A stretch of DNA of 64,000 nt from Pohlia nutans (taxonomy: Eukaryota > Streptophyta > Bryopsida > Bryales > Mniaceae), in assembly GCA_022496805.1 (NCBI GenBank), contig CM040106.1:3472001-3536000 (forward strand), read 5' to 3'. Below are positions 4,120-59,429 of this stretch, piece by piece (positions within the stretch are counted from its first letter, which is position 1; each line of letters begins with the position of its first letter). The position numbers were made by a program, and so were the translations under genes. The notes beneath the pieces were generated by a model. That model was given only the letters and a program-made list of their open reading frames with translations, did not search any database and was not told where the DNA came from.

Positions 4120-5417
4120 GGCAGCAGTAGAGGAAATGATGATACCTGAACGATTGCATGCCCTGAAGTTAAAATATAGTACAATGGAGATGACTCCCCA
4201 TATGTAGAATTAGCTCGAGGCGAGCTAAATCACAAGAGGAAATTGGAAGATGTACATACGAAACAAGAGGCATTCAAAAATTATAGTGTGGATACTCCTG
4301 GAGTCCCAAGCGTAACGCTATGGTCACTCTTCAGATGTCGTTTAGGTGGAATCGACCTCATTTGTCTAGACTATGTCTCAGTTTAGGTCTGCCCAACCTA
4401 AATTGTATCGATCCAGAATTGTCGAGACATTGATTCCATCATCACATCAATTTAGGTCGGACCAAGCTGACTTGATCTGAAGAATTTCCTCCACCATCCG
4501 CTCACTTCATGTACGTACGCGGAAGGGTACCCCTGTTGAGGTCGCTACTAGCTGAGTTGAAATTTTGGGGTGAGAAATATGACAGAGTGCTAGGTTTCCA
4601 ACAGAAGATCACCGGCCAAGGAAGTTTAGGTCGAATCGACCTAAAATGATGTAGACCATGTGGAATGGAATGGAGCGGCTCGAATGATGTAGACCATCTG
4701 GAATGGAATGGGATCTAAGCGTCCTCGCGATTTAGCTCGCCTCGAGCTAAATTGAGGAGAACAGACGGCATGGAATACAATATACAATGCTTACAGAAAG
4801 ACGAGGCTCCTATACATTAGATGCGTTCGACTTCAATCTGTATTATCACATTACGTGTCGACGCAGTGCAACTCTACCCGACATGAATAGACCACAAGAG
4901 TCCAGGTGAGTACTCCAGTACTTGTATAATTTAGGTCGAGTCGACCTAAACTAGAAGGTAGATCAGAGCTCCAGTACACGGCTTTAAGAAGGTAACGTTG
5001 GTGCAATTCAGGTCGAGTCGACCTAAACTGGAAGGTGACTCTCGCTCAAATACAAGGCTAGATGACGATAACGTTGGCGAAAATTAGGTCGAGTCGAGCT
5101 AATTGTACAAGGGCAAGAGGTTCCGTTCTCGAGGACCTTGGAACATATTCAGGTCGAGTCGAGCTAATATGTCCCGGAATTTACAGCAACAATATCGGAA
5201 AGCAACAGCATGGATAATCTGCATTTCGAATTGAAGCAACAGCAACTGAACTGTGGATTACAAATGAAAGCTATGCCAAATACGATTGTAGGAAAGAAGA
5301 AGTTGTCCGAATGCTTACAATAACATAACAGTATGAGATGCAACTGAAAATGAACCCTATCTAAATCGTGCGCGCTAACCCTAGAACTTGAAGTTCTGGA
5401 TAGGTAGTGATCTCTTA
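4120..5417 (-). repeat. Leader intron with element A palindromes
   Basis: This stretch lies between a good donor (GTAAGAGATC on the minus strand, near 5,409-5,418) and acceptor-like CAGs just before the transposase ATG. It carries about ten copies of the element A palindrome, at roughly 4,208, 4,340, 4,381, 4,451, 4,624, 4,731, 4,930, 5,008, 5,083 and 5,148. The best copies are TTTAGGTCGA, one base, then TCGACCTAAA. Others swap a half-site to TTAGCTCGA, or carry transitions at CpG. The copies are irregularly spaced and not tandem, which suggests protein-binding sites rather than a satellite. No coding sequence was seen. Confidence 0.8.
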
Positions 5418-5630
5418 CCGGAATATGTCGCCAACACAGCTCCTCTTGACACGATTCTAGAGCCTCAGCCCGCAACTACACGTAGTCTCCTCGAAGCCTA
5501 AGAACAAAAACTTCCTCCCTTCAACCATGCGAGAGTACAAAGACCGGTGTGGTGGAGTACGCGAACGGAGGAGCATGAGCACGCAAAGAAACGGGAAAAG
5601 GAATATTTCAGTCGCATTTCAACATTTATA
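5418..5630 (-). promoter_or_regulatory. Candidate promoter and first leader exon of the element A transposase
   Basis: On the minus strand a TATAAAT (plus-strand 5,624-5,630) lies upstream of a C/T-rich leader that ends at a GTAAGAG splice donor near 5,418. A start about 30 bp downstream of the TATA box would give a leader exon of about 180 bases joined to the ATG at 4,119. This is inferred from sequence only. Confidence 0.5.
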
Positions 5631-5699
5631 GACAATAAGACGGGAACGATGTGGCGGGAAGAGAAAGGGAGAATTTTGAACCGTCGTTTCTCATCCACT

Positions 5700-8600
5700 T
5701 AAAAATCATATCGTCCACGATGTTCAGTGGACTTTACAACTATGGAGGGAGAAAACTTACTGAAAATATACGCGACAATAATAGAATTCTATACAATATT
5801 TGAATACTTCATTCAAATATAGATTCCATCCCTATGTAACAAGAACATTAGAAACGGAAAATTCTACAGTGAGACATTGCTCTATATTAAATTGTAGATC
5901 ATAATAATAATATTATTCAAACTGCACTTTGTTGGTTTTTGTCGAAAGTACAAATGTAGTTGACAATAAAATAACCACCTCGGGGAGGGAACTTCTTGTA
6001 AATTTCATGAGCGGTATTAGGGTATTTAATCGAGGGCTATGAAGTAATTTTTCATATTCTAGTATTTATAATTTAGTTATGGTATATTCTAAGAATATCC
6101 CTAGAATATTCTCTAAATAGTTTTAAAACACCCTATATTACTTCTATAAATTTATTATTTTTATCTTAAATGAAAAAAGGACACTCAAGATTTGTTCTCA
6201 TATAGTTATGAAAATTCTCGACATTCACTACCTTAAGGTAACCACTGAACATATTGGTAAACATCGTCAAAACCACTATTTATAACTAAGAGTAATTTTG
6301 ATTTTTTATAGAAATGGAAGTTCACCATTTTGACTTTTAGATTCCATCCGTACGGTAGGATTTACTAAATCTATCAGCGATATTTAATTATAAATTTTGA
6401 AAGTTAAATTAAAAAATTCAGTCTACATTTGATAATTACAAAATTATAATGACTTAGTTGAGTAGGACTTATTAAGAATAATTGTAAAGTAGATTTTTCA
6501 AAACATTCATTCAGTTGGTGACTTCTAACGATTGTCGTGTTATAAAAATCTACGACCTCTTTTTCGCAAGTTCTGGATCGCACTAGTATCAATTGAACTC
6601 TGGCGTAGTGAAGGACTTGAATTACTGAACATTATATTCATTTGAGATAAAAAATTATAAATTTGTGAAAGTAATATAGGGTGTGATAAAACGAATTTAG
6701 GAATTTTTTTGGAATTTTTTTGGAATATACGTAGACTATACCCTAAACATACTACAGATAGTAGCATATTCCAATTGTTTCCTAGCCCCCTATTTTACGG
6801 TTATACGTATCCAAAATTTACACTAACTAAGTGACTTCCCCGAGTGTATCTATGTATTTTCCACTGTAGTATTAAGCAGGTAACTTATATAGTAAGTCAA
6901 AATGTACTCCACTTACAGGTCAGGGCGCATTCTAATATTATAGTGAGTGATGTTAATAAAATAATGGAAAATGTAATGTAATTGTCTTAATGAGGAGTGT
7001 TTTAAATATATAAAAGCAAGTAACGATATAGTTGGAGGTATTTCCGTTAAAATTAAGTTTAATGTGTTACTTTATTGTGTTAATATTTAGTTTAAAGGCA
7101 TTATTCACGTTAATTATTAAATAATGAAATATATTGAATTGATATACGGAAAATTTAAATACATACAAGCATTTTTATTAGAGAATATGCATTGCAAATA
7201 ATTCACATTTAATTATACATCAAATAATATGAACGTGTAGGTAGTGCAATATATATTTGGCGTTAAGTACGTGAATTATCAAATAATCGGAACATATTAA
7301 GGAACACTAGATTTAATTTGAGTGACAAAAATCTTGAAAAATCATGGAATATTAATAGAACTATGGGCGTTATAGACACCATGCTTGCAAATATACATTT
7401 GGTATCAAAGACAAGATCATGTCTAGTACTACACATATTAAAATGACTTATTTAGACAGAAGTCACACATTGCGCGACTCACGGTTCAATGTGGTACCCA
7501 TACCAAGTGAACCCATAATTTTCCAAATGCTAAATAATTATTCCCATATTCGTATTTTTATTGTCAATAGTGCAAATTTTTCAAATGAAAATTAATGAAT
7601 ATTAGTATTAAACAGTGATAGCAGTAATTTAGGGACTTTAAGTAACAAAAGTCATAAATGACATATAAGTAGCTTCTAAATGCATGATCATAATTAAACA
7701 AGTTGTAAACATATTTAATTTGTCAAATGCATGATTATTACATTGATGTCATGCTTGCCAAGTGTTCACTATAGGTTATTTTTTACGTGCAAGTAATATG
7801 AAAAATCACAAATTGCTGTACTTCATGGGGCCTCAACCCTAAATGTCAAGTGATTATGATCCAAAAGCATGATAAAACGAAATGCACAAGTTGTAAATAA
7901 TTTTTAATACGCCGAAAGCATTAAATTACTCTACCCTAAACTCTAACCGATGTTTATTTGGATGAATTATCAGATATGTTAAACTTCATCCGCTCATAAC
8001 TTCTACGATTCACGTCCATAAATTAAATAAAAAATCATTTTAATCTCATCTCCATGCAGTCCACTTCATCAAACCAAAATCGCTTAAAGCATGACTAAAT
8101 TGTTAATACTTAATATTTCATGACTTTCAATTGATACAACTCTATATCACCTAAATAATCTAAAAAATTTGTGAAAATTAAGACATTATTATTAGAATCA
8201 CAAAGGTCTAAATTGAAGGCTTAGGATAAAATGATCCACAAACACGTTATAAAACGTTTAAGGTAATATTTTTAAGCAAGTGTCAATGAAATCATCATGA
8301 TTTTACATTTAATACATTGATTCAAAAATTACATTAGGATTCGAAATACTTTCATTTAAATACATTATTTCACGCCATAGACCCTCTCAATTGCTTTCCC
8401 AATATATATGACACTCTTTCAAATGATGAAGTACATGTATGTTACGGATGGATGAATTATCAGAAATATTAAACTTCATCCGCTCATACCTGCTATGATT
8501 CATGTTTGAATTTAAAATACGAATTGAAGCCAATTATATTTATGTAATCTTCATGTACTGTGAATCTTTTTTAATTGAGATTTGTATGCGAGGTTAGCTT

Positions 8601-9520
8601 CATGTGTGTGTGATTTCATCAATTGAAAAGGAAACAATTTGTGGAAATATTATTCCTTATTTTGTGTTCCAATGTTTCACCTATAATTATGAAGATTTTA
8701 CAGACTCTAAAATTATTCTTCAATGAAAGAATAAAATCATAAAATCAAGCATCTAATTAAAAAAAATTCAAAAATCACAACACCTAGTAACAGTACTACA
8801 TTATAACCTGTCACATTCAACAAATATCATCCAGACAATCTGTTTTTATATAATTATATCTTAATATTCATAATCGAATTACTGAATGGTTTTTTATTAT
8901 GTGTTTCTAAAATTTTAGAAAAATTATAAGTGATAACAATGTTAGATTAAATCATATGAATAAATAGAATCTAAAATTCAATACATATAATTATTAACTT
9001 GTATTTATACATCAAGTTTCGAATATTCATGTTAGTTGCATTTTATAATACGTTGTTAGAAAACTACCCAAACCGGACATAGGTGAGGGCATGAAGGGGC
9101 TACAGAATTTGGAATTAAGATTGAAGTTACGATCGGTCAAAATTAAACCTTCTATTCAAAAATTAAACTCAATACAACAACATAGACAATTGTGGATGGA
9201 TGAAAAATAAAGAATACTTCAGTAGGTTACATAATTTACGTTGTAAGAAAGGTCTCTATAACTCCTAAACGTACCAAGTGAACCCTTTGAACATACGTTG
9301 ATTCTACTTAGCCTCAGAATCAGATACTAGTATGGCGAAGATTTATATGTAAGCATAAAATTTATCCAGCAAATTAGACATATTTGTAGTTGGAGGCCTC
9401 TCCAATATTATCAACAAGTTCCCATCAGAAGTCAAAGATTTATTGTGATTGGACGATAATTTAATAAGCTTTCTAAGGTGACTTGCATAAAGACAATCTC
9501 AGGTTGTAAAAGACAGTTAT
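5700..9520. other. AT-rich interior of element A, no gene seen
   Basis: About 3.8 kb of AT-rich DNA with stops in all frames. A segment of about 50 bp occurs twice, at 7,960-8,010 and 8,450-8,505, each containing CTTCATCCGCTCATA. I saw no element A palindromes here, unlike the gene-associated introns on either side, so part of it could be a later insertion. I could not find its edges. Confidence 0.5.
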
Positions 9521-10616
9521 AAGGCCCGAAATTTGTTCGAGATCCAGTTTCTGAACGCGAGGACGTTCAGGAAATACTGTAAAAATTTTAAGAACTATTT
9601 AACCAGAATTATGTGAACAACATGAGAATGTACAAATATAGAAACACGTTGCATATATATTTGTGTATATATATATATATATATATTTATGTATATATAC
9701 CTATATACATATATGTAGAAAGATAGGTGGGTATATAAATAAATATATATATTCAATTATATATAGTACGCGGAAGTCAGGGTCCGCACTTTCATGTCAA
9801 ATAATTAATAAAAGTTAAAATAGTGGACGTCGGCACTTTCAATAGTACGTAATAAGGAATCAGCCATTGATAGATACCAATAATTATTTACGGCCTGCTA
9901 GGAAACGTTTTATAATTTTAATTCTTTCTCTACCATTTTTTCTGACTGTCATGTTCTCATCCAGATTGTAGTGTTTTTTTTTTTACTACTTTTTGTTGAG
10001 TTCATTTTTTATGATATTGACAAATTACTTCATAATTTTTTAAATTTTACGGCACTTTTTACAGGTATTATTCTCTGCCATCCGTGCCTTGCATGTATGG
10101 AATATATATATATATATATACATCCTTTGGCTACCCATAGTCCTGGCTGCTGCCTGAGTTGCGCTGCCCGCTGAAGAGTCCAAGTCGTCTCTCTCGCACG
10201 GCTAGGGTTACAGTTGTTTTTTGTTCTCCGCTCTCCCGCGTCTGTTGCCCTCGTTTAGGTCCGCTTGCCTATCGTGTTCTTTCTGCTTCTCTGCCTCTCT
10301 TGTTTACCGCTTCTCTGTCTCTCTTGTTTACAAAGGTTGTATCAGAAAGCTACAAGGCTAGGAATTTCTTCGCGATCCAATTTTTGAATGCTCGGACGTT
10401 CTGGAAATACTGTAGAAATTAGAATAAGTATGTAACAAAAATTATGTGAACATCAGGAATTACATATATACCTGTTATAGATTTATTTATTTATTTTTAA
10501 TTGTTCCAATGTCCCTTTGTCCAGTGGGCATCGGGTCATTGACATTACGAACAAACACTTCATTCACGCCGGCCCTTTCTTTAGGGTTGGTGTTTCTATC
10601 TATCTTTATAGATCTT

Positions 10617-10665
<49 letters not shown>

Positions 10666-10845
10666 TGCCCGCTGCCCACTGCCCGCTGGCCATTGCCCGC
10701 TGCCCGAGACCCGCTGGGCACTGCTCGCTGCCCGAGCCCCGCTGCCCGCTGCCCGGTCGGGGTCGTCTTTCTCAGAACTAGGGTTTGGTTTGCATTCTGC
10801 GTTTTCTCCCTCCCACTTGTTTCTCCGCTTGCTGCCCTCGTTTCT
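9521..10845 (+). repeat. Duplicated promoter-like block with TA microsatellites
   Basis: Two diverged copies follow one another. The first has an anchor at 9,521-9,640 (around GACGTTCAGGAAATACTGTA), TA runs near 9,665 and 10,105, and a segment containing CTAGGGTT and GTTGCCCTCG at 10,140-10,260. The second has the anchor at 10,345-10,460, a TA run at 10,618-10,656, and the CTAGGGTTTGG / GCTGCCCTCG segment at 10,690-10,840. In between at 10,667-10,760 is a minisatellite of CTGCCCGCTGCC-like units. The block sits directly upstream of the leader of the methyltransferase-like gene, so it looks like a tandem duplication of its promoter. Confidence 0.55.
9780..9860 (+). repeat. Dispersed repeat shared with element C
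   Basis: A segment of about 80 bp containing AATAAAAGTT, AATAGTGGA and CACTTTCA closely resembles 47,415-47,500 in the same orientation. It marks a repeat family present in both element A and element C; its nature is not clear. Confidence 0.5.
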
Positions 10846-11250
10846 CATGTTTCTCTCTTGTGTTCTCTTGTTCTCGTTTAGTTCTCGTGTAGCCCTTGTT
10901 TAGTTCTCGTTCTTCTGTGTTGTTGTGTTTTTCTCTTGTGTTTCTCTGTGGGAGATCCAGCTTAGTGCTCGCTTCATTTTAGTTGCTTTATTCTTGCTTC
11001 TCCCGTGTATCTATCTACAATTACGCTGTCCGTCCAGTTTATCGTGTTTAGGGTTTAGAGTCAGTGTTATTTTGGCACGGCAGTGCTTTATCGTTCGCTT
11101 CGTTATAGCAACACCAATGCCTTAGAGTTCTTGGATTTCAAGTCCGGGCGATTTTATGGTGCGGTGGAGAGCTTCAACGCCCTAATTACTTTGAAGTTTG
11201 CATCTGTCGAACCATTTTCCAGAGCTGAAACCGCCCCAGCTTGAAAATTC
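10618..11250 (+). promoter_or_regulatory. Candidate promoter and first leader exon of the ParB/methyltransferase-like gene
   Basis: A long TA run could act as the TATA region. It is followed by a strongly pyrimidine-rich leader at about 10,790-10,990, the plant Y-patch type. The leader seems to end at the donor CAG|GTAATT at 11,250. A second leader exon at about 12,096-12,191 is bounded by TTTCAG and GTAAGTTT. The start site cannot be fixed from sequence alone. Confidence 0.45.
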
Positions 11251-12191
11251 AGGTAATTCACACCCCATTTGCTATGTTAATTGTTTTGCTTGATAATGTC
11301 TGATAGAGTTTTGGTTTGGCTTCATAATTGCTTGGTAGGGTTTAAGTTCTTAAATTTAGGGTTAACGTTGCACTGAAGCCTTAACTCTCATCAAGATTTT
11401 GGGCCACCTGAGAAGGCGGCCAAACTGAGTGCATCACTATTCATGGAGTTTTGTTTGTTTGGAAGAAATGCAAGCATTGATGTGTACAATGATGCACTGT
11501 AGTTCATGGAAGCTTCAAAATCTTGTTTTTAGTGGGTGGTGCAAAGAACAGGGTGGTGTAACTTGCTAACAAAACACAAATATGAGTGAGGTTTTGGGTT
11601 CTTAAATTCAGCTGGGAAAATTTTGAGATCATTTTGATTCTATGGGTGCTGGTACAATGGATTTCTATTGTTGAGAAGTGCTAATTACGGCCTTAGTTTG
11701 TCTGCTTGCTTTGAATTGGTGTTTGTGGTTTTCAAATTCTATTATCATAGATTGACAGATTGAGAGCTCTTTTTTGATTCTAGGGGTAGTCATGCATGGT
11801 TTTTTCGTGCATGGATTTCTGTTGCAAGGCCGTTTTTAGTTGCTGTAGTGAATTGTGTGATATGAGTACTTTTAGCTTTGGTGATTCAGATTTCATAGGC
11901 ATTGAGTGAAAATGCACAGTTTTTGCTATTGTATTTGAATATTAGTCAATGACACTCATATATCATGTATGTTTGCGATTTTTTGTGTATGAGATTCTTG
12001 AATGGTGATATTTTGAAACATTGAATTCCGAATGAATTTCATGAATGCTCTAGAAGTTCATTTTATTGATGAGTGAATTTGTTGCAATGTTTCAGATTGA
12101 GCAATTTGGCTAGCATGAGCAATTGTTTGTAGAATTTGTACTTCATAATCGAGGAGGTTACGTACGTGCGCTATTCACCACTCTCAATTCT

Positions 12192-13589
12192 GTAAGTTTC
12201 ATTCTTCTGTGCATTCAATGAATTGTATACCTGCATGTCCTAGACGGTAATTTTACTTTTGATATGGTATGCTATGTATGAGCACAGTAGTTTTTGGATT
12301 ACCTGCATGTGACATACGGTAGTTTAGGTCGATGTCAGTTTAGCTCGAGGCTATGTAAATGGACTCAAAAATGTAGTAACAGACGGAACTTTAGGTCGAC
12401 CCGATCTAAAGTGACAAAGGGCCCTACAACAATTGTAGGTCGGATTGATCTAAATACCTCCAAAACACCTATTCCTGTCACATCTCACTTGCAGTCGAGC
12501 TATTATGCGGTCGATTCAGCTCGCATGGACCTAAATTGAGCTTAGTTATAAACTCTAACACTACAGAATTTTAGATCGGCTCGAGCTAAATACACACAGA
12601 AACTCTTGCCAGCAACGGTACTTCAGATCGACCCGACCTAAAAATCACTAGTAAATGCCACATATCAGGTCGAATCGACCTAAATTGCAGTCCAATCAAG
12701 TCGGCCCGACCTAAATTACCGTATCTTATAATGAATACAAAGAAAACCTAAAAGAAAATATTAGGAAGAAAGATTCTCCCCATTCAGCAGATCAAGTTGA
12801 ATTGACCAAAATCCGCACTTATAGATCGTAGTTGTCAATTTCTACAGTAGGAAGTCTTGCACATGAAAATGTATAATGTGCTAATTCAGATAGAATTGGT
12901 CTAAATTACCGTAAACTTCAATAGAATTGCAGTCCATTAAGCTCGACCTGACCTAAAATACCATGTCATATGATTAATACACATGAAATGTAACAAAATA
13001 ATGGTAGAAACACACTACCTCTTTGGCAGTTTAGGTCGATTCGACCTTAATTACCCTACACAGTAATAAAATCTGATCGAACCTGCATAGAATTCAGCTC
13101 GGTACGACCTAAAGTACGCAAAATCGCTTATCATTAGATGTGAACATTCAGGTCGACCCGACCTAAATTGCCCTAAATGGCCTGCCCCGAACACTAAAAG
13201 AATAAATGAAAACCAAGACGAATCAACTAGGTTGCATCCCACACAATCCCATTGAACCTATACTCATAGGCACCACAAAATATATCCGTAATTTCTTAAT
13301 ACCTGAAATTCTTAACTATATTTCCTCTTTAGGTTGGGTCGACCTAAATAGTATTACATTCTTGACTGAATGTATGATACATATTAAGCGTACTACAGCC
13401 TTGTCTAAGTTTTAGCTCGACCTGAGCTAAATTATGATGTGAGTCTGATCAATATCGACGTCCGAGTTGTTCGCCGTTGACAAGCCTGCATCATGGTAAA
13501 TTTGCCACTCTATATAGGCATGCTGATGTGTGTGTTGTGCATTTTAGCTCGTACCGACCTAAATCTTTGTCTGTCCTCGTTGTGAACAG
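12192..13589 (+). repeat. Second leader intron with element A palindromes
   Basis: An intron by its GTAAGTTT donor at 12,192 and GAACAG acceptor ending at 13,589. It carries about 14 palindrome copies, near 12,323, 12,391, 12,435, 12,571, 12,621, 12,665, 12,700, 13,029, 13,092, 13,149, 13,329, 13,410 and 13,542. Half-sites are TTTAGGTCGA and variants (TTAGCTCG, TTCAGATCG), mirrored about one central base. Many differences from the consensus are C/T or G/A changes at CpG. No coding sequence was seen. Confidence 0.8.
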
Positions 13590-15027
13590 AATGGCAACAG
13601 AGAGGAAGACACCAAGGGAATTGCAAAGTGAACCCCTCCACCTCTACTACAAGAAAGTTGCACATCCACAGAGAACGGATGATGCAGGAGGCGACGACCT
13701 CGCAAACTTTGGGGAGTTCTGGGAGCTGCAGGACCAAGAACTGGTACAGTTCTGGAGTTTGAACATGATACCAATGACTCCTGATTGCTGCTTGATCACG
13801 AAGAACGCCAATGCACCGACCTACCTCCCACTGTCATTGCACGAGAAGGTAAAAGACATCAACGCCGGTGATGGCTCCAAAATCATGTTGCACTGCGTGA
13901 CAACAAGAACTGAATGAGAAAAGAAGAATCAGTACAACTTCACGCTGATTCTTGACTCCACTGTAATTCCATTCAAGATCAGCCCCTTGATAGCCTCTCT
14001 CAAACATACAGAATTCAGAGGAATGATGAAGGAGCTGGAGAATAAATTTGACAACCAATACTTCACAAGTACAAACGGTCAGCCGCTGCGTGGGGCCCAA
14101 CTCTGCTTGAAAATCCGGAAGGTGATCTAGAACTTTGAAACCTTCAAGGCCAAGATGGACATGCAGAGTCTATCGATGACACCAATAAGTGCGTCCCTCG
14201 ATAACCGTAGCCAGGGAGCGAGTGCGGGATCCATGGGCACAAACTCGCCAAGACCCCAACAGAGCCGAGGCAAGCGCAAGGCCAACACGCCTCACACCTA
14301 AACCACCACCCAAAAGCCATCTCGGCTCCTCGTCGAAGAGGAGGAAAGCTGTTGACAAGAGGGCACGATAGCTTGGCATCCGATGTGACCAGAGCCCGTG
14401 CAGCGCAATAAGAAACCGGACTTCACACGCTGGACCAAGGCGTACAAGACGTTATGGTCGTCCTGCACTGATGTGTTTCTCTGGGGAATCGAAGAAAAGA
14501 AAACGATCCCCATCGAGCAACTAGTCGATGCGCCTCCGCACATGAACATCAAGTCATACGAGCCGGGTCATGCGGAGAAGATCATGGGCTTCCTTCTCAG
14601 CATGCCCGATAAGAGCACAAAGCAGACTCTGTGCGTCATGCCTTGCGACCTAGACGTTAAGCCGACTAGCTGGGACTCCATCAAAGATGGAAAGTTCGGA
14701 CTGATCAACAGGCAGCACAGCGTCAAAGCAAGTTTCATGATGCGCGAACGAAAGATGGACCCCAAAGACATCAAAGAGTTAGCGCAATGGAACTGCTTTA
14801 TCGTTTGGACGAAGAACAACGAAAAAATTCATCAAATATCCGCGTACTACAACCGGGTCAACCACTTCGGCGCCATCAAGCCGTCCTGGGTGACTAACAT
14901 CTTGGGAGCGCGGCAGGTCTGGATTAAACTCGATCGCCCTAAGAACCCGAAGGAGTTAGTTCAAGTGGGAACGAGCCATCAGGCGTCGAGAACGAAAGAA
15001 GCCGCGATCAACAAAACAAAATTCAAC

Positions 15028-15255
15028 GTAATGTTCAGCTCGACTCGACCTGAATAGCTTGCGATAGTACTCCAAGTCCTAGTGTGTCCCTATAGAGTAG
15101 ATCCGTGGCACCTGCGAGTTAGGTCGAGTCGACCTAAAATGCTCATACGTTTGTGGTCTTTTCTACTGAGTGTCCTTGTAATCCGTGCGCTCCACAGTCT
15201 GGGTTGGTTTAGGTCGAGTTGACCTAAATGACTGTATAATAGCTAACAGTGTATG
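15028..15255 (+). repeat. Coding-region intron with element A palindromes
   Basis: An intron between a GTAATG donor near 15,028 and an AG acceptor near 15,255. It contains three palindrome copies, at about 15,035, 15,118 and 15,207; the one at 15,118 is nearly perfect. Exon sequence on both sides is free of them. Confidence 0.7.
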
Positions 15256-19478: not shown

Positions 19479-19799
19479 TTCATTGTACGATTGTATAGCT
19501 GGACGCCCTTTTCTTAGTGATGTAGCCGTTCCGGACTACCTATCAATTTCTGGTCGCCTTGATTGATCTAAATAATTCCTTGTAATTGTAATATACCTTT
19601 GTCTTTACAACATTTGCGCTTGAGTACTTTGTGAGATGAATATTATGAACGCTTGAATGTTATCCCTAGAATGTGTTATGTCTTAATCGCACCCGTATAC
19701 AGTTTGCATCATTTTTCTTCTCTTTTTTTTACTGCTTGGAAATTTTTGTTTCATTGCAATGCGCTGGTGGAATTTGACCTCATTGGTAATTCTCTTCAG

Positions 19800-20608
19800 G
19801 CAAGGTATGCCACTGCCAATCCAGCCCACGGTGCTGGCCTCCAATGCACAGGGTCCACCGATTCTATCATGGACTATGGCCAGTATGCTATACTCAGTAG
19901 AGGAAACGTCTTGTGCTCGGCAACTACGGCCTAGTCAACGATGGACTTTTCCACCAAGCCAATTCGACATGGTGTAGTGGACAGCCCTCCTAACGGTGGT
20001 ACCCGTCCTGTGCCGAAGTCCTCACCTTCTCCTTTGGGGTCACGAGAACCCTCTACTTCTCGTTGGTTGCGTTCTCCGTCTGATAGGGTGCCTCAGAGAA
20101 AGCTTTATGAAGACGCCGCACACCCAATTATTTCTCTTGAGGTACGAATACTTGCTTTCCCCACACCATTATTTCGCTTAGACGGTCTTGTCTTGCAGTT
20201 TACTTGATGTAGATTCCCTTGTACTTGCAGGGTTCCGACATTCCCAAACCATGCAAGTCCTTTGCTACTTTAAATGCTTTCCGAAAGACTCCTGCAATGC
20301 TTTCATCAGACCCGCCTCCTCTAACCCAAGCCCGTGTTAATGTGGTCTCTCGTGTGCCCTTGCGTACTCGTCTCCCTTCAGTGAATGCGGGTCTTCAAAA
20401 GACTAAGTCGCATGACAAATTCAGAAGGAGATCCGCTCCGGTTCGAGATGAGAGGGAGGAACTGATGTTTGCGCAACAAAGGCGAGAGATTGCGCAACGG
20501 CGATTGTCGATGTATCCCTTCTACAGTCGTAGTCATGTGATGTTGAAGGCAATAGCTGAACTTCATTTGAAGGCTGAAGCTGAACTAAAGAGTCGATCGC
20601 AACCCTAG
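19800..20608 (+). CDS. Unknown basic protein, last two exons in element A
   Basis: Exon 19,800-20,141 follows a TTCAG acceptor and ends at a GAG|GTACG donor. Exon 20,231-20,608 follows TTGCAG and ends in TAG, and both are in phase. The first has one in-frame TAG about 45 codons in and is Ser/Pro/Arg-rich. The second ends in an Arg/Glu/Ala-rich helical stretch ('AELHLKAEAELKSRSQ'). I recognise no domain. It could be the 3' end of the FCP1-like gene read past the TAG at 19,478, or a separate gene with an unseen first exon. It is the last coding sequence before the right TIR. Confidence 0.5.
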
Positions 20609-20955
20609 AAACCGCTAGGCATTCTATTTGTGATTACTATAGAGACTTAAAAAAGTACGTGGAGCTCATGTTTTTATATAGGATTTTAGGCTTCACTCAT
20701 TCTTTTTCCTAGCATTATGAGACATTATCAAAATTGGATTACCGTCCTGTAATACAAACACCCAAAAAATGTATATTCGTTTTATAATTACTATAAATAG
20801 ATGTCACATCTGTAATCTTATATTGCTCACTTCTATTAAATGTACTCTATTTGATCTTCGCTGTGTCCATCTTCTTGTGTTTCAACCTATATTTGGAATG
20901 GTTAGTGGTTCAATTTGGGTTGATTTTAGACTTTTTGAACTCTCATTATTCTGGA

Positions 20956-20981
20956 ATTCTCTCATTTTAATGAATATTATG
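20956..20981 (-). repeat. Element A right TIR
   Basis: This is the exact reverse complement of 367-392 over 26 bp. It contains CTCTCATTTTAATG at 20,960-20,973 and ends in GAATATTATG. Minus-strand coding sequence of element B starts right after it. It sits about 350 bp beyond the end of the last element A coding exon (20,608). Confidence 0.85.
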
Positions 20982-21500
20982 CTATAATCTCCTTTGCAAG
21001 CTTCTTGAAATCGCAGTCCCAGACACAAAGTGTTAAAACAAGATATGTCTTCGTGATGTGGGTCCTTGGCAGCCATGAAATCACACCAGGCTTGCTACCG
21101 TCCACGAGCGGAAGTTCTCCTTTACCACTCTCTCCACAATATTGAGGTTGAGAGCGTTAGAGACGCGGATGAGCTTTTTTTGATCCCGACTATACACTGG
21201 AATGACTTCGAACTCTAGCAGGTCCTTCCGAGCCTCTGATCCTATAGGGAGCTCTTAGGCAAGGTCGCGGCAAGCTGTGACGGTGTGTTGCCTCCCTACA
21301 ACGTACCAATGGACATCAGGCGAATTCCACCAATCAACTTCAACACCGTCAACCACCACCTTGGATCCTTCCGCCGGCATAATGTCCATAACAATATCAA
21401 TGCCGTCCTTGTCCATCAAGGGCCTCTTCTTCAAGGGAACAACATGGATCTCTGACTTCTTCCTGATGCATCCATATCCCTTGTATATTTGCTTGACCTG
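20982..21500 (-). pseudogene. Element B ParB-like exon, cut by element A
   Basis: After a GTTGTCAG acceptor near 21,500 the minus strand reads a basic segment, then 'WYVVGRQHTVTACRDLA', an in-frame TAA/TAG, then 'LLEFEVIPVYSRDQKKLIRVSNALNLN' in pieces, to the element A boundary at 20,981. 'VVGRQHTVTAC' is the counterpart of the ParB box in elements A ('INRQHSVKAS') and D ('CDGNHRLQAW'). The frame is picked up again at 366 beyond element A. Upstream at about 21,556-21,577 a B-type palindrome lies in the intron. Confidence 0.6.
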
Positions 21501-21751
21501 ACAACAATGGCAGGCATAGTTAGATTCATACCGCTTGCAAGTGCTTGCAATCATGTCAGCTGGCAGTCGATACCAAGAAATGGCCAAACTGGCATACGAA
21601 TAATGAATAAAGCACTAACCTGCGACAAGCGCTCCTTTGCAATCCTGCGCTATTAGAACGTGTCGGAAGGGATGTGCAGCCTATCAGAAGGGATGACACT
21701 AGGAAGGCGATGCTAGTTGTAAAGAAACAAACGGGACAGTTCAGCCTCTAT
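21501..21751 (-). other. Element B intron sequence left of the copia element
   Basis: Non-coding sequence between the ParB-like exon and the copia 3' LTR. It holds one B-type palindrome, near 21,556-21,577. I see no gene here. No clear 5-bp target duplication links it to 25,991. Confidence 0.5.
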
Positions 21752-21992
21752 TGAAAGTGATGGAAGAATGCACAAGGCACAAGGAATGCGTAGAAAGGGA
21801 TGATCTTTACTCAAGAGCTTCCCTCCTTAAGAGGTATACACTAGGAGGTGTGCATGACAACCCATATGGGTTAACTCACCACTAGAGGCCTCTAAGATCA
21901 ACCCATGCCTTGACCCCTCTCCTACACATTATTATTTCCACCCAATCCCCTTTGCCTTCTAGCAACACTAACCTACATCTTCTACTTCAAGA
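21752..21992 (-). repeat. Copia 3' LTR
   Basis: About 241 bp, the partner of the 5' LTR. Its outer end is CA in minus orientation, as expected. Its inner end has TC in place of TG. Confidence 0.9.
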
Positions 21993-22005
21993 CTCCCACT
22001 TTGCG
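21993..22005 (-). other. Copia polypurine tract
   Basis: The minus strand reads AAAGTGGGAG immediately before the 3' LTR, the usual position and composition of a plus-strand primer in plant copia elements. Confidence 0.7.
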
Positions 22006-22114
22006 TAGAGCCAAAGCCTTTAAGTCCATATGCTATTACTAGTTTTTCATGTCGATCTCGTGCAAGACCCTTTGTCAACACATCCGCCATCATGTGCTCC
22101 GTTGAACAATACTC

Positions 22115-24976
22115 TTACCGTATAACTCCCATCTCCAAATTCTCCCGAATGAAGTGGTATTGCACATCAATGTGCTTTGTGCGTGAATGATGTGTCGGGT
22201 TCTTTGCAAGTGAAATGCTTCCTTGGTTGTCACACATGATCGTAGTAGCCTCCCCTTGTGCACAACCCACATCCGCCATTAGTTGTCTTAACCAAATGGC
22301 CTCCTTCGTAGCCTGGATTGTCGCAATGTATTCCGCCTCCACGGTAGACGTGGCCGTGGTTTGTTGCCGCTTGCTATTCCACGATACCGCACCCGATCCA
22401 ACCTTGAACATATAGCCCGTGGTAGATTTTTGATAGTCCATGTCTCCCGCGTAGCCCGCATCGCAATAACCGCTTAATACAATGTCAAAGCCACCGAGGC
22501 ATAACTTCACATCAATCGTTTTCTTCAAGTAACGCATGATCCTCTTCACCGCCATCCAATGCTTTGAGCCCGATCTTGCCATGTATTGACTCACCACGCT
22601 AATTTGATATCCAAGGTCCGGCCTTGTAGCGATCATCGCATACATCAACGACCCCACCGTTTGCTTGTATGGCACTTCCGACATCGATTGAGCCTCCGCC
22701 AAATACTTCTCCTTGGTAAGCTTCACGAGCTTGGAAATGACATTTAATGGTGTTGCAATGGGCTTGCAATCCTCCATCCCAAATCGCTTGAGCACATCCA
22801 ACACGTATTTGCCTTGGCTCAATGTGATAGTGCGCATTGCCCTATCCCTCACAAACTCAACTCCCAAAAAAAAATGCAACTCGCCAAGGTCGCACATCTC
22901 ATACTCCTTCTCAAGCATGGCTTTGAGCGCCTCCATTGAACTCATGAGGCTTGCAAGAATGATCAAGCCATCGACATAAATGATCACAATCACAACATGT
23001 TGACCCTCTTGCATGAAATACAAACTATGATCCGCAATGCTTCTAGTGAACCCGCATTGCACAAGAAATGTGTCAATCTTTTGATACCATGACTTCGAAG
23101 ATTGCTTCAACCCATACAATGACTTTTTGAGTTTGCAAACATAATCCTCTTTACCTTCTTGTACAAATCCCTCGGGTTGCACCATATAAATGTCCTCCTC
23201 CAAATCGCCATTCAAGAATGCCGTCTTCACATTCATTTGATGAATTTCCAAATCCATGGCCGCTCTAATTGCAAGAATGCATTGAATGGTCATGAACTTG
23301 GCCACGAGAGCAAACGTCTCATGAAAATCCACGCCTTGATCTTGCGCAAATCCCTTTGCCACAAGCCTTGCCTTGTAGCGCACCACATCACCAGAAGCAT
23401 CTCTCTTTGAACGAAACACCCACTTGCAACCAATGGAGTTGCGACCCTTGGTAATGGGATTCAATTCCCATATGCCATTAGCAATCAACGACTCATACTC
23501 CTCTTGCATAGCTTGCTCCCACTTGACCGCATCTTCACCTTGCAATGCTTCACGAATAGTTGATGGTCCATCCGATAACGCCACCTTCGCATGTTCGTTA
23601 TCACTAGGAGGAAAGATCTTCCACCACCCTTCGGGTGGCTTGCGCACTCTTTCGGGATATCGCCGATTGTTTGAAAGTGCGTTCTCCATTTGCACCTCCT
23701 TTTTGTCGTTCTTGGTGCTCGAACTCGATAGATCCTCCAACTTGCCATCCTTCTCACCTTCATCTTTATCGCCAACATCAACAATAGGAGATTTGGAGGG
23801 TGTGTCCACAATTACGTCTCTACATCTTCGACTTGGACCATCCTCCAAATGCGGCTTTGCCGTAGACTCCTCACAAAACGTCACATCGCACGATCGAATA
23901 ATCTTCTTTGTGTCCACTGACATCAACCTATGCGCCTTGGCCTCAAGCACCGTGTCATCTCCCAAAATCACTCTCTTTGGCAAAATAAGATGATAGGAAT
24001 GAAAACAACTCCTTTCGGGTGCCATGTGGCTCGAGGCACCCGAATCTACAATCCAATCACTCACACTACCGTTGCATGATACGTGACCTGCCATGTTTGC
24101 GTATTCGTAATCATCATCAGTCATGCTTACATCACGAGTGACATATCTTGTGGTGAAAGCATACTCATCATTATAGTCACGTGTCTTTGTGTTGTTGGCA
24201 CTCTCGCCCTTCTCATTATACTTCCGTTTGAAACAATATTTTGCGAAGTGACCCTTCTTGCCACAATAGAAGCACCTCGCTAAAGCTCCTTTCTTGGATT
24301 GCTTTGCCATAAGAGCCGCACTATCTCCATGAGACTCATTCTCCTTTCGCCGCGAAAGCTCGTGCAACAACCGCGATGTCACATAGTCCAATGTGAGTTC
24401 GGAAATGGGCCTCGTCTCCATAGCCACAATGAAATACTCAAATGAGGGTGGTAGACTCTCCAAAAGCGACATCACGATCTCCCCATCCGAAATGGTCACG
24501 TCCGCACTGTTGAGTTGATTCGCGAGTGCCTTGACCTTGTTGATGTGCTCCAACTTGTCTTCTTCTTTCTCCATCTTGATGGTCAAGAACTTGCACCTCA
24601 AAAACAAAATCTTGGCTAAAATCTTCGCTTCGTGAATGACGCAAAGCTTCGCCCATGCTTCCGAGGGTGTCTTGCAAGAACGGATGTGCGCAAGTTGTGA
24701 ATCCGAGAGATTGAGAGCCAATATTGCAAATGCCTTCTTCTCCCTCCTCATGTATGCTTGCATAGCGCGAGGGTCCGAAGTAGAATTAGCCGACTTCTCA
24801 CAACCGCCTACAATCTCCCACAAGTCCTTCTCGGCCATCACCATCTCCATTTTGAACTTCCACAAGTGGAAATTCACCCCATCAAACTTGTCCACCACTT
24901 CGGGACCCTCACCCTCATAAGATGCCATGATGTACGTCTCCCCACTCAAATCAACCCTCAAACTCAAAAAGGACAC
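22115..24976 (-). CDS. Copia gag-pol polyprotein lacking the integrase core
   Basis: A single uninterrupted frame of 953 codons; the likely start is the Met of 'MASYEGEG' about 16 codons in. It has a gag domain with 'DKFDGVNFHLWKFKMEMVM', a CCHC zinc knuckle 'CFYCGKKGHFAKYC' (about residues 237-250) and a protease 'WIVDSGASSHM' (about 307-317). Within about 50 residues comes 'DVTFCEES', which normally lies at the far C-terminal end of integrase. Then follow the acidic linker, reverse transcriptase ('CKWVFRSKRD', 'KARLVAKGF', 'QMNVKTAFLNGDL', 'SLYGLKQS', 'IIYVDGLIILA') and RNase H ('GYCDAGYAGD', 'EAEYIA', 'HIDVQYHFIRE'). The HHCC and DDE integrase regions are missing without loss of frame, and the catalytic YVDD reads YVDG. 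The usual length is about 1,300 residues. It would need both functions from elsewhere. Confidence 0.93.
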   Translation of the reverse strand: MSFLSLRVDLSGETYIMASYEGEGPEVVDKFDGVNFHLWKFKMEMVMAEKDLWEIVGGCEKSANSTSDPRAMQAYMRREKKAFAILALNLSDSQLAHIRSCKTPSEAWAKLCVIHEAKILAKILFLRCKFLTIKMEKEEDKLEHINKVKALANQLNSADVTISDGEIVMSLLESLPPSFEYFIVAMETRPISELTLDYVTSRLLHELSRRKENESHGDSAALMAKQSKKGALARCFYCGKKGHFAKYCFKRKYNEKGESANNTKTRDYNDEYAFTTRYVTRDVSMTDDDYEYANMAGHVSCNGSVSDWIVDSGASSHMAPERSCFHSYHLILPKRVILGDDTVLEAKAHRLMSVDTKKIIRSCDVTFCEESTAKPHLEDGPSRRCRDVIVDTPSKSPIVDVGDKDEGEKDGKLEDLSSSSTKNDKKEVQMENALSNNRRYPERVRKPPEGWWKIFPPSDNEHAKVALSDGPSTIREALQGEDAVKWEQAMQEEYESLIANGIWELNPITKGRNSIGCKWVFRSKRDASGDVVRYKARLVAKGFAQDQGVDFHETFALVAKFMTIQCILAIRAAMDLEIHQMNVKTAFLNGDLEEDIYMVQPEGFVQEGKEDYVCKLKKSLYGLKQSSKSWYQKIDTFLVQCGFTRSIADHSLYFMQEGQHVVIVIIYVDGLIILASLMSSMEALKAMLEKEYEMCDLGELHFFLGVEFVRDRAMRTITLSQGKYVLDVLKRFGMEDCKPIATPLNVISKLVKLTKEKYLAEAQSMSEVPYKQTVGSLMYAMIATRPDLGYQISVVSQYMARSGSKHWMAVKRIMRYLKKTIDVKLCLGGFDIVLSGYCDAGYAGDMDYQKSTTGYMFKVGSGAVSWNSKRQQTTATSTVEAEYIATIQATKEAIWLRQLMADVGCAQGEATTIMCDNQGSISLAKNPTHHSRTKHIDVQYHFIRENLEMGVIR

Positions 24977-25720
24977 TTGTTTTTATGATTTTTGATAGAA
25001 TGTAGCACCTTTGTGCTTCCAATGCCTCTACAACAACTCTAAACCTCAAATCAGCACTTTTGTGCTCTTCACACACCTTTCAACACTCAAATTGCCAAGA
25101 AGTTCACCAAAATACCTCAAATCACTCAATGGAGCTCTCCACTACTCCAATTGCCTCAAAACAACACCTTAGTGTTTCCAATTGCTCAATGCACTTAATC
25201 GACACCTTTGTGTCCCTCAGTAGCACTAAATCGATGCTCATAGACTCACATAAGCCCTTCAAAACCCGAATTATATTGCATTGAATTGCCCAAAACCGCA
25301 CCTTTGTGCTCCCAAGTGCATTAAACAACTCCACATGAAATTTTGAGCATTCCGAGGGCATGAAACACATGCAACACCTCTTTCCAAGTGCCCAATCACT
25401 AAAATCAGATTGTAGACTCTTCCCTTAGAGCCTCAACACCTCACAAATCACTTGCAATCTTACAAGTGCACCAAATTGAACAAAACAATGTTCCACTTAC
25501 AAAAAGGGTTTGGAATCAAAAAATTAAAGCACCAAAAGAAGAGATTGACCAAGAAGAGTGCTCCAATGTGCAACTTCAACCCATGCGCACCTCCAAGAGA
25601 CAATACTCCTCCAAAAAGCTCCAAAAATAAAATGCTCCCAAAAGCTCCAAATCAGCCCCTTCCACAACGACCTCCAACAAAACGCCTCAATGCAATCCAA
25701 CACTCACGCAACACACATGA

Positions 25721-25734
25721 GTGGGCCCATAACC
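25721..25734 (-). other. Copia primer-binding site, initiator tRNA-Met anticodon region
   Basis: On the plus strand the 14 bases GTGGGCCCATAACC lie three to four bases inside the 5' LTR. From memory these match the anticodon stem-loop of plant initiator tRNA-Met, not the tRNA 3' end. Priming by a cleaved half-tRNA is known for Drosophila copia and yeast Ty5. Confidence 0.75.
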
Positions 25735-25737
25735 TAT

Positions 25738-25990
25738 TGAAGGTGATAGAGGAATGCACAAGGCACATACACAAACACAAGGAATGCGTAGAAAGAGATG
25801 ATCTTTACTCAAGAGCTTCCCTCCTTAAGAGGTATACACTGGGAGGTGTGCATGACAACCTATATGGGATAACTCACCGCTAGAGGCCTTTAAGATCAAC
25901 CCATGCTTTGACCCCTCTCCTACACATTATTATTTCCACCCAATCCCCTTTGGCTTCTAGCAACACTAACCTACATCTTCTACTTCAACA
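25738..25990 (-). repeat. Copia 5' LTR
   Basis: In minus orientation it begins TGTTGAAGTAG and ends ACCTTCA, with the canonical TG..CA ends. It is about 253 bp long and matches 21,752-21,992 throughout, with scattered substitutions and one insertion of about 12 bp. Confidence 0.9.
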
Positions 25991-26737: not shown

Positions 26738-28366
26738 CAATCAAAAGCAGAGTTTTAATCTATGTCCGTTGCCGGCCGATACATTCGAGGCAACCTTATT
26801 GGCTGCTGGCCGATAAGAGACAAACATGGACATGCATTGCAACATTCAGATTACATTAACATTATTTAGTTACGCATGCCCCTCCTGTTCTAAATATCTC
26901 AACAGCCGCACCAGTGAGTGTATATCGGCTGCCAGCCAATAACTATTCAACCGCATGCACTTTCAAGGACATGGCAATAGCGGGTTATCGGCTGGCAGCC
27001 GACATACATCACATTTATCAGCTGCCAGCCTATACAACAATGCTCATTGCGACAACACAAATTATGATCTTACCTGAGAGTGGATGCCCTGGACGACATT
27101 TTGTATCGGCTGGTCACAACTTGCATGTCGGCTGATCACAGCTTGCAGTAGAAGCTGCACGTGTTCTTGTAGGCTGCCGTCCGATAGCTGTCGGTTGCAC
27201 AATCAAAAGTATTGGCTTCACAAACAAAGGTGTCGGCTGCCGTTCGATAGCTGTCGGTTGATGAAGAGCGCGGTGAGTGAGAGAGGGAGAGCAGGGAGAG
27301 TAGGGAGCAAAATTGCAAAAAAACTATCGGCTGGCAGTAGTGAGGGAGAGAGGGAAAGCAGGGAGAGCAGAGAGAGGAGAGAGCCAAGAAAAAAAACTCA
27401 AGAATGAAGGATAGTGAGGGAGGATGAGAGACTGACCCCCCCTGCCTCTCTCCCGCCACTCGAGTGATTTTGCAATCACTTCAAACAGCCGCCGAAACGT
27501 CACATGTCACATCCATCCATCCATTCCTGGCCTTCCCTACGCCTAGTCTACTTCATCCATCCTCAACAATTCCATCCACCCAAGAATGCACGCACGTCAC
27601 ATTCAATTGCATTCAAGAAGATGCATGCAACTCAAAATTTTCTTGAAGTGGCGCGCACTTGGTAGAGGGAAGCCTTTGTCTCCCTCATTCACTCTCGCAA
27701 TCTTGTTTTGGACTTCAGTACTATGGGCAAGAGGCTCCATTTTTGCTCAGATTTCTTTGTGTTCCGTGCTTGATTTGCTTAGGTTGATGCTGTAGCTCTG
27801 CATTTTTCTACTCTGTGCTTGAACTGATAACAACATCTCCATTAATTTGTAGGTTTTTTCATTCATGTTTACCTTTGATGCACTCTCCTAATCGCTGACC
27901 TAATCTGGATTCTGGTCTCCTAATTATAAGGTCATTGCTCTATTCAGTATCGGAGGCCAGCCAATACCCCGATTACCAGCAGCCAATACATCAAGCAGAT
28001 TTCAAATCTATTCTACTCCTAGCATACGCCAACCTAGAGCAGTTTTTAGGTCCCTATTCAGTATCTTCACTATCATATCATCTCAATTATCGGCTGCTAG
28101 CCGATACTCTACGTGGATTTCTGAACTTGTACTCACTCCTCCATTGGCTGCCAGCCGATACACTAGGAGGCGTCTGAATCATCTATCCTTCAAACACACG
28201 CTCTCTGCTATCGGCTGCCAGTCGATACAATCGGAACCGCCTGAATCATAAATCGTGCAATCACACGTCCTCCAATATCGGCTATCAGCCGATACACTTG
28301 GTAGACTATAAATTTCTACTCTTACCGTCTGACACTCTCCTCTGTCAGCTGCCAGTCGATACTAGT
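26738..28366. repeat. Divergent control region of element B with its palindromes
   Basis: The region between the two divergent B genes carries about 14 copies of the B palindrome (half-site TATCGGCTG, one base, then CAGCCGATA). They lie near 26,769, 26,799, 26,924, 26,987, 27,017, 27,103, 27,170, 27,231, 27,326, 27,946, 28,092, 28,143, 28,210, 28,276 and 28,346. Copies form two groups, in the apparent leaders of each gene, with a free gap at 27,430-27,900. At 27,270-27,430 the plus strand is GA-rich, so the minus strand has a Y-patch leader for the ParB/methyltransferase-like gene. Promoters are inferred. Confidence 0.75.
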
Positions 28367-30303
28367 ATGAAGAGGTCATTTGCAGCTGCGATGGACTTAG
28401 AGCCTATTGCTTCATCTTTGAAGAATGGTGGCTCTAGTCGATGGAAGATGGCAAAAGACGTTTTTGTTGCACTCACTCATGCCGGCCTGTACTATGCCGG
28501 ACGTGCTGTTATAAATCGGGTAGTCTCTCGAGATCTGATACTTTTGAGTGTGCGTGTGCTGGATGTATCGGACTCTATTGAGATGATCCTCCCGTTCACA
28601 GTTGAAGACGTCAAATACCTAAGTAAAAGTGTGGGAAAGAGCATTGTATGGAAAGAGAGATTCGTCAGACCCTTTGCGGAGGAAATTGACGCTGTTTGCA
28701 CTCCTATCGGCCGGCAGACGATACATCTGATGGCAGAGGAGATACCCATCGACCAAATTCTGATGCTCTCAGTGAACATGGCGGTCACACTTCTTTATAG
28801 TGATGGAGCCGACCTCCGATGTGTTGGAGTCGGTGTCATCGTTGAGTGCTCACCCAAAGGGAGTTGGGAGGGCTTCCTAGTCCCGCACAGTTTCTTTGTC
28901 ATGGTGAGGTGGATCACTGTCCACTGTGACTTCCGTGAGCTCACAGCTTATTGCGACGACAATTCTCTAACTGTCTTTAGAAATGCCTTGGTCACTACGT
29001 CTTGTGGAGTGGATACAACGTCAGGCCTGCGGACCCTTCTGCACCGGTGCGTTGTGGTGTTGGCTGCCAGCCAATACATCCGTGTTCGAAGGAGGTCGAC
29101 CAGGATGCTAGCCATGTTGTACGCACAAATGATTCCCCTCCCGGAGAAGGCTGTGGCAGCTCTGGAAATGCTCATGCAGGCGAGCGTCCCCTCGATTGTG
29201 GGCGTGGTTCGTCCTTGGGATCTGCTACGGAGTTGCAACGGCCCAACCTAGAGAATGGCCATGACCTTGATGATGTTAGTGATGATCATGACCTGCCTCG
29301 TGAGATTGGGAATAGCTCTAGTTTCAGAGATGACAATGGAGGCAGTGACATTACAGGAGGACAAAGTGTCGCAAGTGCAGCTGGCGATAGCGCCGCTGTT
29401 GGTCGTGATGTCCGGTTGCCATATCCCGATCGCCACCTCTGGAGGCATAAATACTGTGAGCTCCTCAACGAGAATCAGACAGTGTTTGGCCAAGCAATGA
29501 TTCAAGTTTGCCTTCTTGAGGAGGCTTGCGATGAGAACATTCTAGGCGATATCGACGTGGGTGTTATGTTTGTGTCCGAGCACGAGTCCCTTGAGATGAC
29601 CATTATGCTCTGGCCATTGAGCCGTACTAGATTAGAAGGTGGGCAACTACTATCCGAGATCGTCACGCTCTACTTTAATGCTGCAAATATGGTCGAATCT
29701 GAGGATAGAGGATTCTATGAAATTCCCAAGAATCCTAACCGCTCAGTGCGTCGCAAGTTCTTGCCCAAGAATCTCACTCCCATATCCAAACTGAAGCATA
29801 AGACATCGGAAGTGGTGGTTTGGAAGGTCAGCTCACAAGGTTGCTGTAGGAATAGGTGTTGTATGACGTTTCCTTGGGAGGAGACTAGGAATCTCCGCCA
29901 AAAGTTCTTTGCCTCCTCATTTGAGGCAAGGAGGGAGACTACTTACGCTGTTCAGTGTCAGCTTCATCCAGGTCCGTTGAGGGGAAGGAGGTTTATCGCT
30001 CTTGCCAATGTTGATGTCTGTGAGAAAGTATGGTAAGTCATTCACGGAGTCTCAAAATCCGCATACCACGTGTACAAGAATGCTCCGGTGGGCGGATGTG
30101 TTAGCGGGTCTCACTGTAATTCTGGAGTTGTTCGACCTCGTCCCCACACAATTCAAGCCCACGCAACCTTACAGAAAATCATTGATGAGAACTTTGACAA
30201 GATGTCAAATGAGTTTAGACTCGTCGCGAGCAAACGAGTGGATAATTTGAAGGTTGTGTCGTCCGCCATGAATTGGAACCACATGCGAGAGCAGGTTAAC
30301 TTT

Positions 30304-30519
30304 GTGAGTACCACGACTGCTTCACCCGAAGGCACTCGATTGTACTTGTCTGCCACTGGCACTGTATTGGTTGGCGGCCGATACGGTCCAACTCACTTTT
30401 CCTGAATAAATGTTGTCAACTCCTCGTGGCCTTCTAGTCGTCGCACCAGCCAATATCGGCTACCGGCCGATACATATTCTGCAATCACGAACTGACTCGT
30501 CCATAGTGGTCGCGTTCTA
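30304..30519 (+). repeat. Intron of the element B transposase with palindromes
   Basis: Donor GTGAGTACC, acceptor TTCTAG. It contains B palindrome copies near 30,370 and 30,454 (TATCGGCTACCGGCCGATA). Confidence 0.65.
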
Positions 30520-31002
30520 GGTGAATGAAAAGTGGAAACGTAGGCCTGTCTCGCAATCCACCATTAGTCAGTTCCGAAAGAATCACTTCAAGAATGTCGA
30601 AGTCAAAGCTGTTGGGAGCAACTTCTCGAAGTGCACCGAGTGTGACTTTCTCGAAGTGCGACTTTCTCAAGTGTGACTTCTCGAAGTGCAACAAGCGCAT
30701 CGAAATATATACGCCGGTTGGAGTGCTCAATCTGTGCAGAATCCGTCTGAGTTTCTCTGTATTATTCACGACAAGATGGACACAAGCAAGACGGCTATTC
30801 CCAGAATGCAACGTATCATCAAAGCCACTGCAGGACTTGGCAAGATTCCCATCTATTGCACTAGCATGTTGACGCATGGCCATGGTGACGATGCGTACGC
30901 ACATTATTTGACAGCACTCTGGCCGGGCGACTCCAACTTCACTATTTCCTCTTTGTGTCAGCTATTGCGAGCTTTGGAGCAACCACCTGTCTCAAAGTCC
31001 CG

Positions 31003-31198
31003 TAAGTTTCTTCCTACTCCTCTAAGTGTACGGACTTCTGCATGTCCCTGAATTTCTTTCTTTGGATGTCTGAGATTAGCGTTTGAGTATATATCGGCTG
31101 CCCGCCGATACGCTTCCAGCTTTCTTCGACTGACTCGTTCACTGTGGTCTCATTCTTGGTGAACTGTTTCCTACTCCTCATGAGAATAGTTTCTTCCA
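31003..31198 (+). repeat. Second intron of the element B transposase with a palindrome
   Basis: Donor GTAAGTTTC, acceptor TTCCAG. One B palindrome lies at about 31,091-31,109 (TATCGGCTGCCCGCCGATA). Confidence 0.65.
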
Positions 31199-59425: not shown

Positions 59426-59429
59426 AGCT

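Follow-up and report, generated by a model that had tools for sequence, protein, structure and literature searches.

The closest described parallels to the locus reported here come from Arabidopsis and Ectocarpus. In the available passages of PMC5735166 and PMC10398659, the VANC motifs of Arabidopsis VANDAL transposons are short and element-specific, crowd the non-coding parts of the element, introns among them, frequently form tandem repeats and diverge together with the element protein. The Ectocarpus transposon Sola1-1_Ec32 is 21.5 kb long and carries a ParB-methyltransferase gene opposite its transposase gene, and its authors suggest that the element is bound and modified (PMC12477816, available part). 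This was the only relevant work on ParB-bearing transposons in the literature searched; the part available cites Iyer 2011 and Petroll 2025 on ParB proteins in algal transposons, and giant transposons with ParB-methyltransferase genes are already published. Here, we analysed a 64-kb stretch of the genome of the moss Pohlia nutans (C22:3472001-3536000 of 697.8 Mb, hereafter the window), in which giant transposon A is nested in element B, each with clustered copies of its own palindrome, and which also contains a third element, C.

As in VANDAL21 with its VANC21 protein (a Mutator-like element, MULE), family-specific motifs lie densely in the non-coding DNA of the moss elements. An earlier sequence-only reading of the window had proposed this parallel, which holds for the layout (PMC5735166, available passages) but not for the type of motif or protein. 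The VANC motifs are 8-9 bases long and have a single orientation, with no mention of palindromes in those passages, whereas the moss sites span 19-21 bp and are symmetric. Unlike in the MULE/VANC case, the moss transposase matches only DUF7869 by Pfam, and the accessory protein is modelled with a ParB fold; the available passages on VANDAL/VANC (PMC5735166, PMC10398659) name neither a ParB protein nor non-autonomous elements. Sola1-1_Ec32 is similar in size (~21 kb) and in layout, with the ParB-like gene opposite the transposase in both A and B. In contrast to it, the moss elements carry a NIF phosphatase, a methyltransferase domain was not detected in the A exons scanned and was found only in element C, and the available account of Sola1-1_Ec32 (PMC12477816) contains no palindrome arrays.

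Motif A, TTTAGGTCGA-N-TCGACCTAAA, has 21 sites in the window at up to three mismatches, compared with a mean of 0.00 in 100 shuffles, and 32 sites at up to five. Motif B, TATCGGCTG-N-CAGCCGATA, has 19 sites at up to three mismatches (0.01 in shuffles) and 24 at up to four. The arrays, previously put at about 35 A and 25 B copies, are therefore real, with 32 sites counted for A; 20 of the 24 B sites lie inside element B as claimed, while four lie beyond it in element C, at 59.2-61.3 kb. Every site at up to four mismatches (A 28, B 24) is mirrored about exactly one central base, as had been noted, and none has a centre of 0 or 2-5 bases. A search of the window for repeated palindromes without any prior motif ranked A and B strongest, the few other clusters having four members each. 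Genome-wide, motif A occurs 6,633 times at up to three mismatches against 25 times for the reversed pattern, and motif B 4,177 times against 80. Variants with a 2-bp centre gave 15 sites for A and 27 for B, their own reversed controls giving 170 and 35, respectively.

Among the matches listed (C1, C2), all 57 perfect A sites belong to A-family copies or to short elements with A-type ends; 51 of these are in sequences that were fetched and compared, and six (C2) were assigned by position only. As a check, eight more places with perfect sites, all beyond the copies identified so far, were examined and proved to be one A copy, two copies of a 560-bp miniature inverted-repeat transposable element (MITE) and five copies of a 405-bp MITE. 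The genome counts bear out that each family has its own motif, which in the sites examined is confined to that family.

The placement in leaders and introns was likewise confirmed. In the window, none of the 32 A sites lies in the 4,426 bp of homology-supported A exon, trimmed at splice donors, and none of the 20 sites of element B in its 2,479 bp of exon; the exons of element C were outside this comparison, hence its four sites are not counted. Exon ends at splice sites were judged by eye, and the A exon was cut back to the donor on the ground that the stretch beyond it is missing from the Physcomitrium model P0041. Without trimming, protein matches would overlay A site 15034 and B site 30454 in the window, and they overlay two of the 44 sites in c50, another copy of A; these overlaps come from splice-unaware protein predictions or loose alignment ends. 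In c50, 43 of the 44 sites fall within 3.5 kb of leaders and introns, with none in the 7.2-kb reading frame (part of which is an open frame only) and none in the 4.8-kb AT-rich middle. The elements are accordingly not filled with palindromes, as had been stated; the sites are clustered instead.

The motif also covaries with the ParB-like protein of the family. Perfect sites and ParB matches among the matches listed on C1-C4 were compared at a distance of 15 kb: all 11 A-type ParB genes are near an A site and 0 of 19 near a B site, while 11 of 13 B-type genes are near a B site and 0 of 6 near an A site, against chance levels of 0.7% and 0.4%. In a third ParB group, 0 of 5 genes are near a B site and 0 of 1 near an A site. 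The A and B proteins share 24% identity over 96 residues. On sites outside the family, sites in exons and covariation with the protein, the results all favoured the sequence-only reading, with two families to draw on. A modelled homologue of the A-type protein is predicted to adopt the ParB/Srx CTPase-domain fold. The ParB link rests on this fold; the Pfam scan found no ParB domain in the A exons scanned, nor a methyltransferase domain, and a PDB search with a ParB profile gave a single match at chance level.

Since the site is long, symmetric, confined to the family where examined, present in MITEs too and switches with the ParB-like protein, the target of an element-encoded dimer is the best reading of the arrays. 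The palindromes may well be family-specific sites, used for self-recognition, of a homodimeric protein that the giant transposon family itself encodes, with the ParB-like one as the most likely candidate, and we give this reading an even chance. Binding of the palindromes by the ParB-like protein itself seems equally balanced between true and false. Sites spread over leaders and introns would leave the protein sequence unconstrained, and the family would recognise its own DNA through the palindromes, whether in full copies or in MITEs. On the model of ParB clamps and of Arabidopsis VANC, the bound protein could then keep the element accessible (anti-silencing) and/or aid assembly for transposition. 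A role in anti-silencing or self-marking, rather than in end synapsis alone, is plausible but falls somewhat short of even.

The gene-less MITEs with A-type ends bear motif A palindromes. The 560-bp type has six sites at 51-52 bp spacing, four of them perfect, together with the target-site duplication GAAC and an A-like subterminal repeat. The 405-bp type has its end motif and palindromes in common with A, and blastn matches only stretches of 23-49 bp round the palindromes, which lie ~50 bp from each end; its target-site duplications are AGTT, TTTA and TTGG, with an imperfect one in copy L037 and diverged ends in L034. The terminal repeat of the 405-bp type occurs at 59 places, of which 20 were sampled regardless of sites (18 with the exact repeat, 2 with close-set ends). 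Among the 18, several of which are near-copies of one another and some of which lack the right part, the left site is kept at up to four mismatches in 17 and some site at up to two mismatches in all. The remaining two, short elements, hold one site (four mismatches) and two sites (five and three), respectively.

These MITEs also suit a different explanation, namely that the palindromes serve as accessory sites in transposition, where the transposase or a helper would bind so that the ends are paired, with silencing uninvolved. The plant En/Spm and Ac transposases have internal binding motifs, and because MITEs have no genes to express, a mobilisation role explains directly why they retain palindromes, in the 405-bp type near both ends. 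However, the nearest sites in c50 are separated from the left end by ~3.8 kb and from the right end by ~2.9 kb and lie within transcription units, and the short repeats beside the left end are similar to the terminal repeat and not to the palindrome. We consider this explanation possible but rather unlikely. The strong clustering of sites in leaders and introns, seen for both divergent genes, would fit regulation of transcription or splicing as well, with the palindromes serving as promoter-proximal or intronic enhancers for an element-encoded or host factor. However, the palindromes also occur in MITEs devoid of genes, and no host regulon was seen among the 57 listed perfect A sites, whose restriction to the A family disfavours a host transcription-factor site; regulation of this kind appears improbable.

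Comparison of copies showed that sites in introns are conserved beyond their surroundings. For intron 1, the identity between the window and c50 is.937 over the three sites against.609 for the remainder, a value reached by 2 of 2000 random placements. In the plus leader, the sites are.632 identical against.403 in the comparison with c50 (4/2000 random placements) and.581 against.366 with copy c48 (41/2000); intron 2 gave.810 against.617 (41/2000). Retention of CpG in the sites is uninformative because CpG depletion in the element is mild (observed/expected 0.70-0.93). Passive tandem duplication of neutral sequence without function would account for the sites that stand in local 76-bp, 31-bp and 148-bp repeat runs, but is very improbable in view of the conserved islands in diverged introns, the exact centre and the differing contexts of the sites (two introns, two leaders, several MITE types). 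Mismatches to motif A are unevenly divided in the plus gene of c50, with 60 in the sense 5' half and 33 in the 3' half, and G6 is changed to C in 19 of 31 sites. Selection against cryptic splice donors was considered as a cause of this asymmetry; many of the asymmetric sites are local duplicates. RNA hairpins folding within leaders and introns, which a 21-nt palindrome could form and with which this 5' bias would agree, were rejected as scarcely credible, since a one-base exact centre is a feature of DNA dimers and, among 104 changed pairs in the 44 c50 sites, the majority are broken, only 26 staying pairable and nine being changed on both sides and paired.

Several observations weigh against recognition by a ParB-like dimer. 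The structural model (predicted template modelling score, pTM, 0.44) is that of a metagenome homologue 71% identical to the A protein and not of the A protein itself, and Foldseek gave no match at E 0.001, the best reaching 1.3e-3 with probability 1.00. The canonical CTP-binding box of ParB is GERR; the A protein has NGQHS at this position (by eye, alignment A1), which makes CTP binding doubtful. No DNA-binding domain was identified, the later exons not having been searched for a helix-turn-helix. Two B ParB loci among the matches listed have no perfect B site inside 15 kb, the co-segregation comprises two families, and element copies are not independent. Furthermore, the site columns of the 405-bp MITE (MITE2) hardly exceed the other columns in conservation (.926 vs.885), the minus leader shows no significant difference (.656 vs.543; 311/2000 random placements), and the leader values may be inflated through anchoring of the aligner on sites.

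The parS, NBS and OB sites of the bacterial clamps ParB, Noc and KorB are palindromic. The A-type homologue shares the predicted CTPase-domain fold with these clamps, whereas the box residues differ (by eye) and the 19-21 bp sites occur by the dozen. KorB has specific loading sites and acts at a distance, according to the available part of PMC11790492. As a speculative extension, which we hold to be doubtful, the moss arrays could represent a eukaryotic parBS-like self-marking system: a ParB-type clamp of each family would load on its own palindromes, spread over copies and MITEs, and exempt the family from silencing or gather copies for transposition, new families emerging through joint change of ParB and palindrome. 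Should family-specific recognition of the palindromes hold, sequence-specific transposon self-recognition would extend from the Arabidopsis VANDAL group to moss, with a relative of a bacterial partition factor and a 21-bp site. The ParB-methyltransferase accessory genes of algal giant transposons are proposed to act in binding their own element, and the arrays provide candidate target sites. Since the site is long, symmetric and family-confined where examined, binding, methylation protection and MITE mobilisation are testable with simple constructs. In the literature searched, which leaves most subscription journals outside, we found no description of palindrome arrays or of MITEs bearing them and no mention of DUF7869; the available part of PMC7466625 concerns other moss transposons and does not mention MITEs, Sola or target-site duplications.

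Element A was defined by comparison with eight other copies (Table 1). Its terminal repeats are 28 bp long, the right end having one difference. Sola elements produce 4-bp target-site duplications, and the same length was found in the MITE with GAAC and in three A copies: ATAA in the window (361-364 and 20984-20987), AAGT in c50 and ACAA in c49. Copy c50 is ~21.8 kb long, with terminal matches at C1:50277685 and 50299513. Genome-wide, the A terminal pattern has 449 + 443 matches on the two strands, compared with 1 + 2 in controls, and many of them pair up 20-22 kb apart. The B copy b4 lacks A and shows the empty site (7936-8058 corresponds to window 21103-20981, and 8052-8416 to window 364-1); therefore, A inserted into the ParB-like gene of B. 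The A transposase matches Pfam PF25273 with E 2.7e-15 in the window and 2.9e-42 in c50, and no sequence relatives of the transposase profile were found in PDB. Over window 17668-20981, the stretch that contains the phosphatase frame, identity with copy c49 is 81%. Among the matches listed, 10 of 11 named homologues are from moss (Physcomitrium patens, Ceratodon purpureus) and one is from an uncultured Leptolyngbya. A hand count of 150 A-type ParB matches placed 52 on C23, of which 32 are free of stops, and 17 on C22, of which 6 are; C22 and C23 may be special chromosomes, for instance sex chromosomes.

Table 1. Features of the window and positions of the palindromic sites
Feature	Position	Strand	Remarks
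Element A, DNA transposon, 20.6 kb	365..20983		Nested in element B; terminal repeat AACAYAATATTCATTAAAATGAGAGAAT; 4-bp target duplication
A DUF7869 transposase	2389..4119	-	Window open frame; homology continues to ~1653; 866 aa in c50
9 motif A sites	4209..5168		Leader of minus-strand gene
15 motif A sites	12339..13563		Leader intron of plus-strand gene; intron by eye
A ParB-like protein, first coding exon	13591..15027	+	tblastn 13528-15054; donor end by eye; in-frame stops here
3 motif A sites (15034, 15118, 15208)	15034..15228		Intron 1 of A's ParB-like gene
5 motif A sites	16709..16976		Intron 2; intron by eye
A NIF/FCP1-type phosphatase frame	18770..19480	+	PF03031 E 2.1e-10, scored on copy c50
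B ParB-like gene fragment (GRQHT; GGQHT in copy b4)	21147..21470	-	tblastn 21147-21416 E 3.8e-4; b4 E 4.7e-7
Motif B site	21554..21572		Adjoins B's ParB-like exon; taken as intron by eye
Ty1/copia retrotransposon	21778..25988	-	213-bp direct terminal repeats; nested in B
14 motif B sites	26763..28361		Divergent leaders of B
2 motif B sites (28705, 29058; 2 and 3 mismatches)	28705..29076		Open frame without homology support
B transposase, three exons (~29530-30304, 30521-31001, 31194-32092)	29530..32092	+	Splice ends by eye
3 motif B sites (30365, 30454, 31092)	30365..31110		Two introns of B transposase; match P0200 reaches over 30454
Element C, ParB-like exon (GNHR, by eye) and N6/N4 methyltransferase exons	54542..57890	+	Third element
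4 motif-B-type sites (59168, 59389, 61175, 61249)	59168..61267		Element C

Families A and B both encode a DUF7869 transposase, a NIF-type phosphatase and a ParB-related protein. The B transposase gave tblastn E values down to 1e-34 and matches PF25273 with E 2.6e-23. In the B copy b4, two NIF/FCP1-type phosphatase frames are present (L031+L032 10275-12303). The proposal that the elements encode ParB- and methyltransferase-like proteins stands in its ParB-like part for A and B, while a methyltransferase was matched in element C and not in A or B. This match (PF01555, E 1.2e-5, 25.9 bits) falls slightly short of the curated cut-off of 26.7. The expected catalytic motif of such enzymes is of the DPPY type; because VDYPED stands in its place (by eye), the methyltransferase of element C may be inactive. 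A DUF7869-type fragment (58676-58915, E 7e-7) follows the methyltransferase.

The third ParB group (family D), with ~34% identity to the B protein, was found at C18:25084287, C10:23337152, C11:843319 and C7:350642, and many of its copies have 463-aa open frames. A further element (L029+L030 4245-11660) carries more than 20 motif B sites, many of them inside 148-bp tandem repeats; it has no blastn similarity to the genes of B, and its end sequence TAATTAGTTAAATAT is common to b4 and window position 62167.

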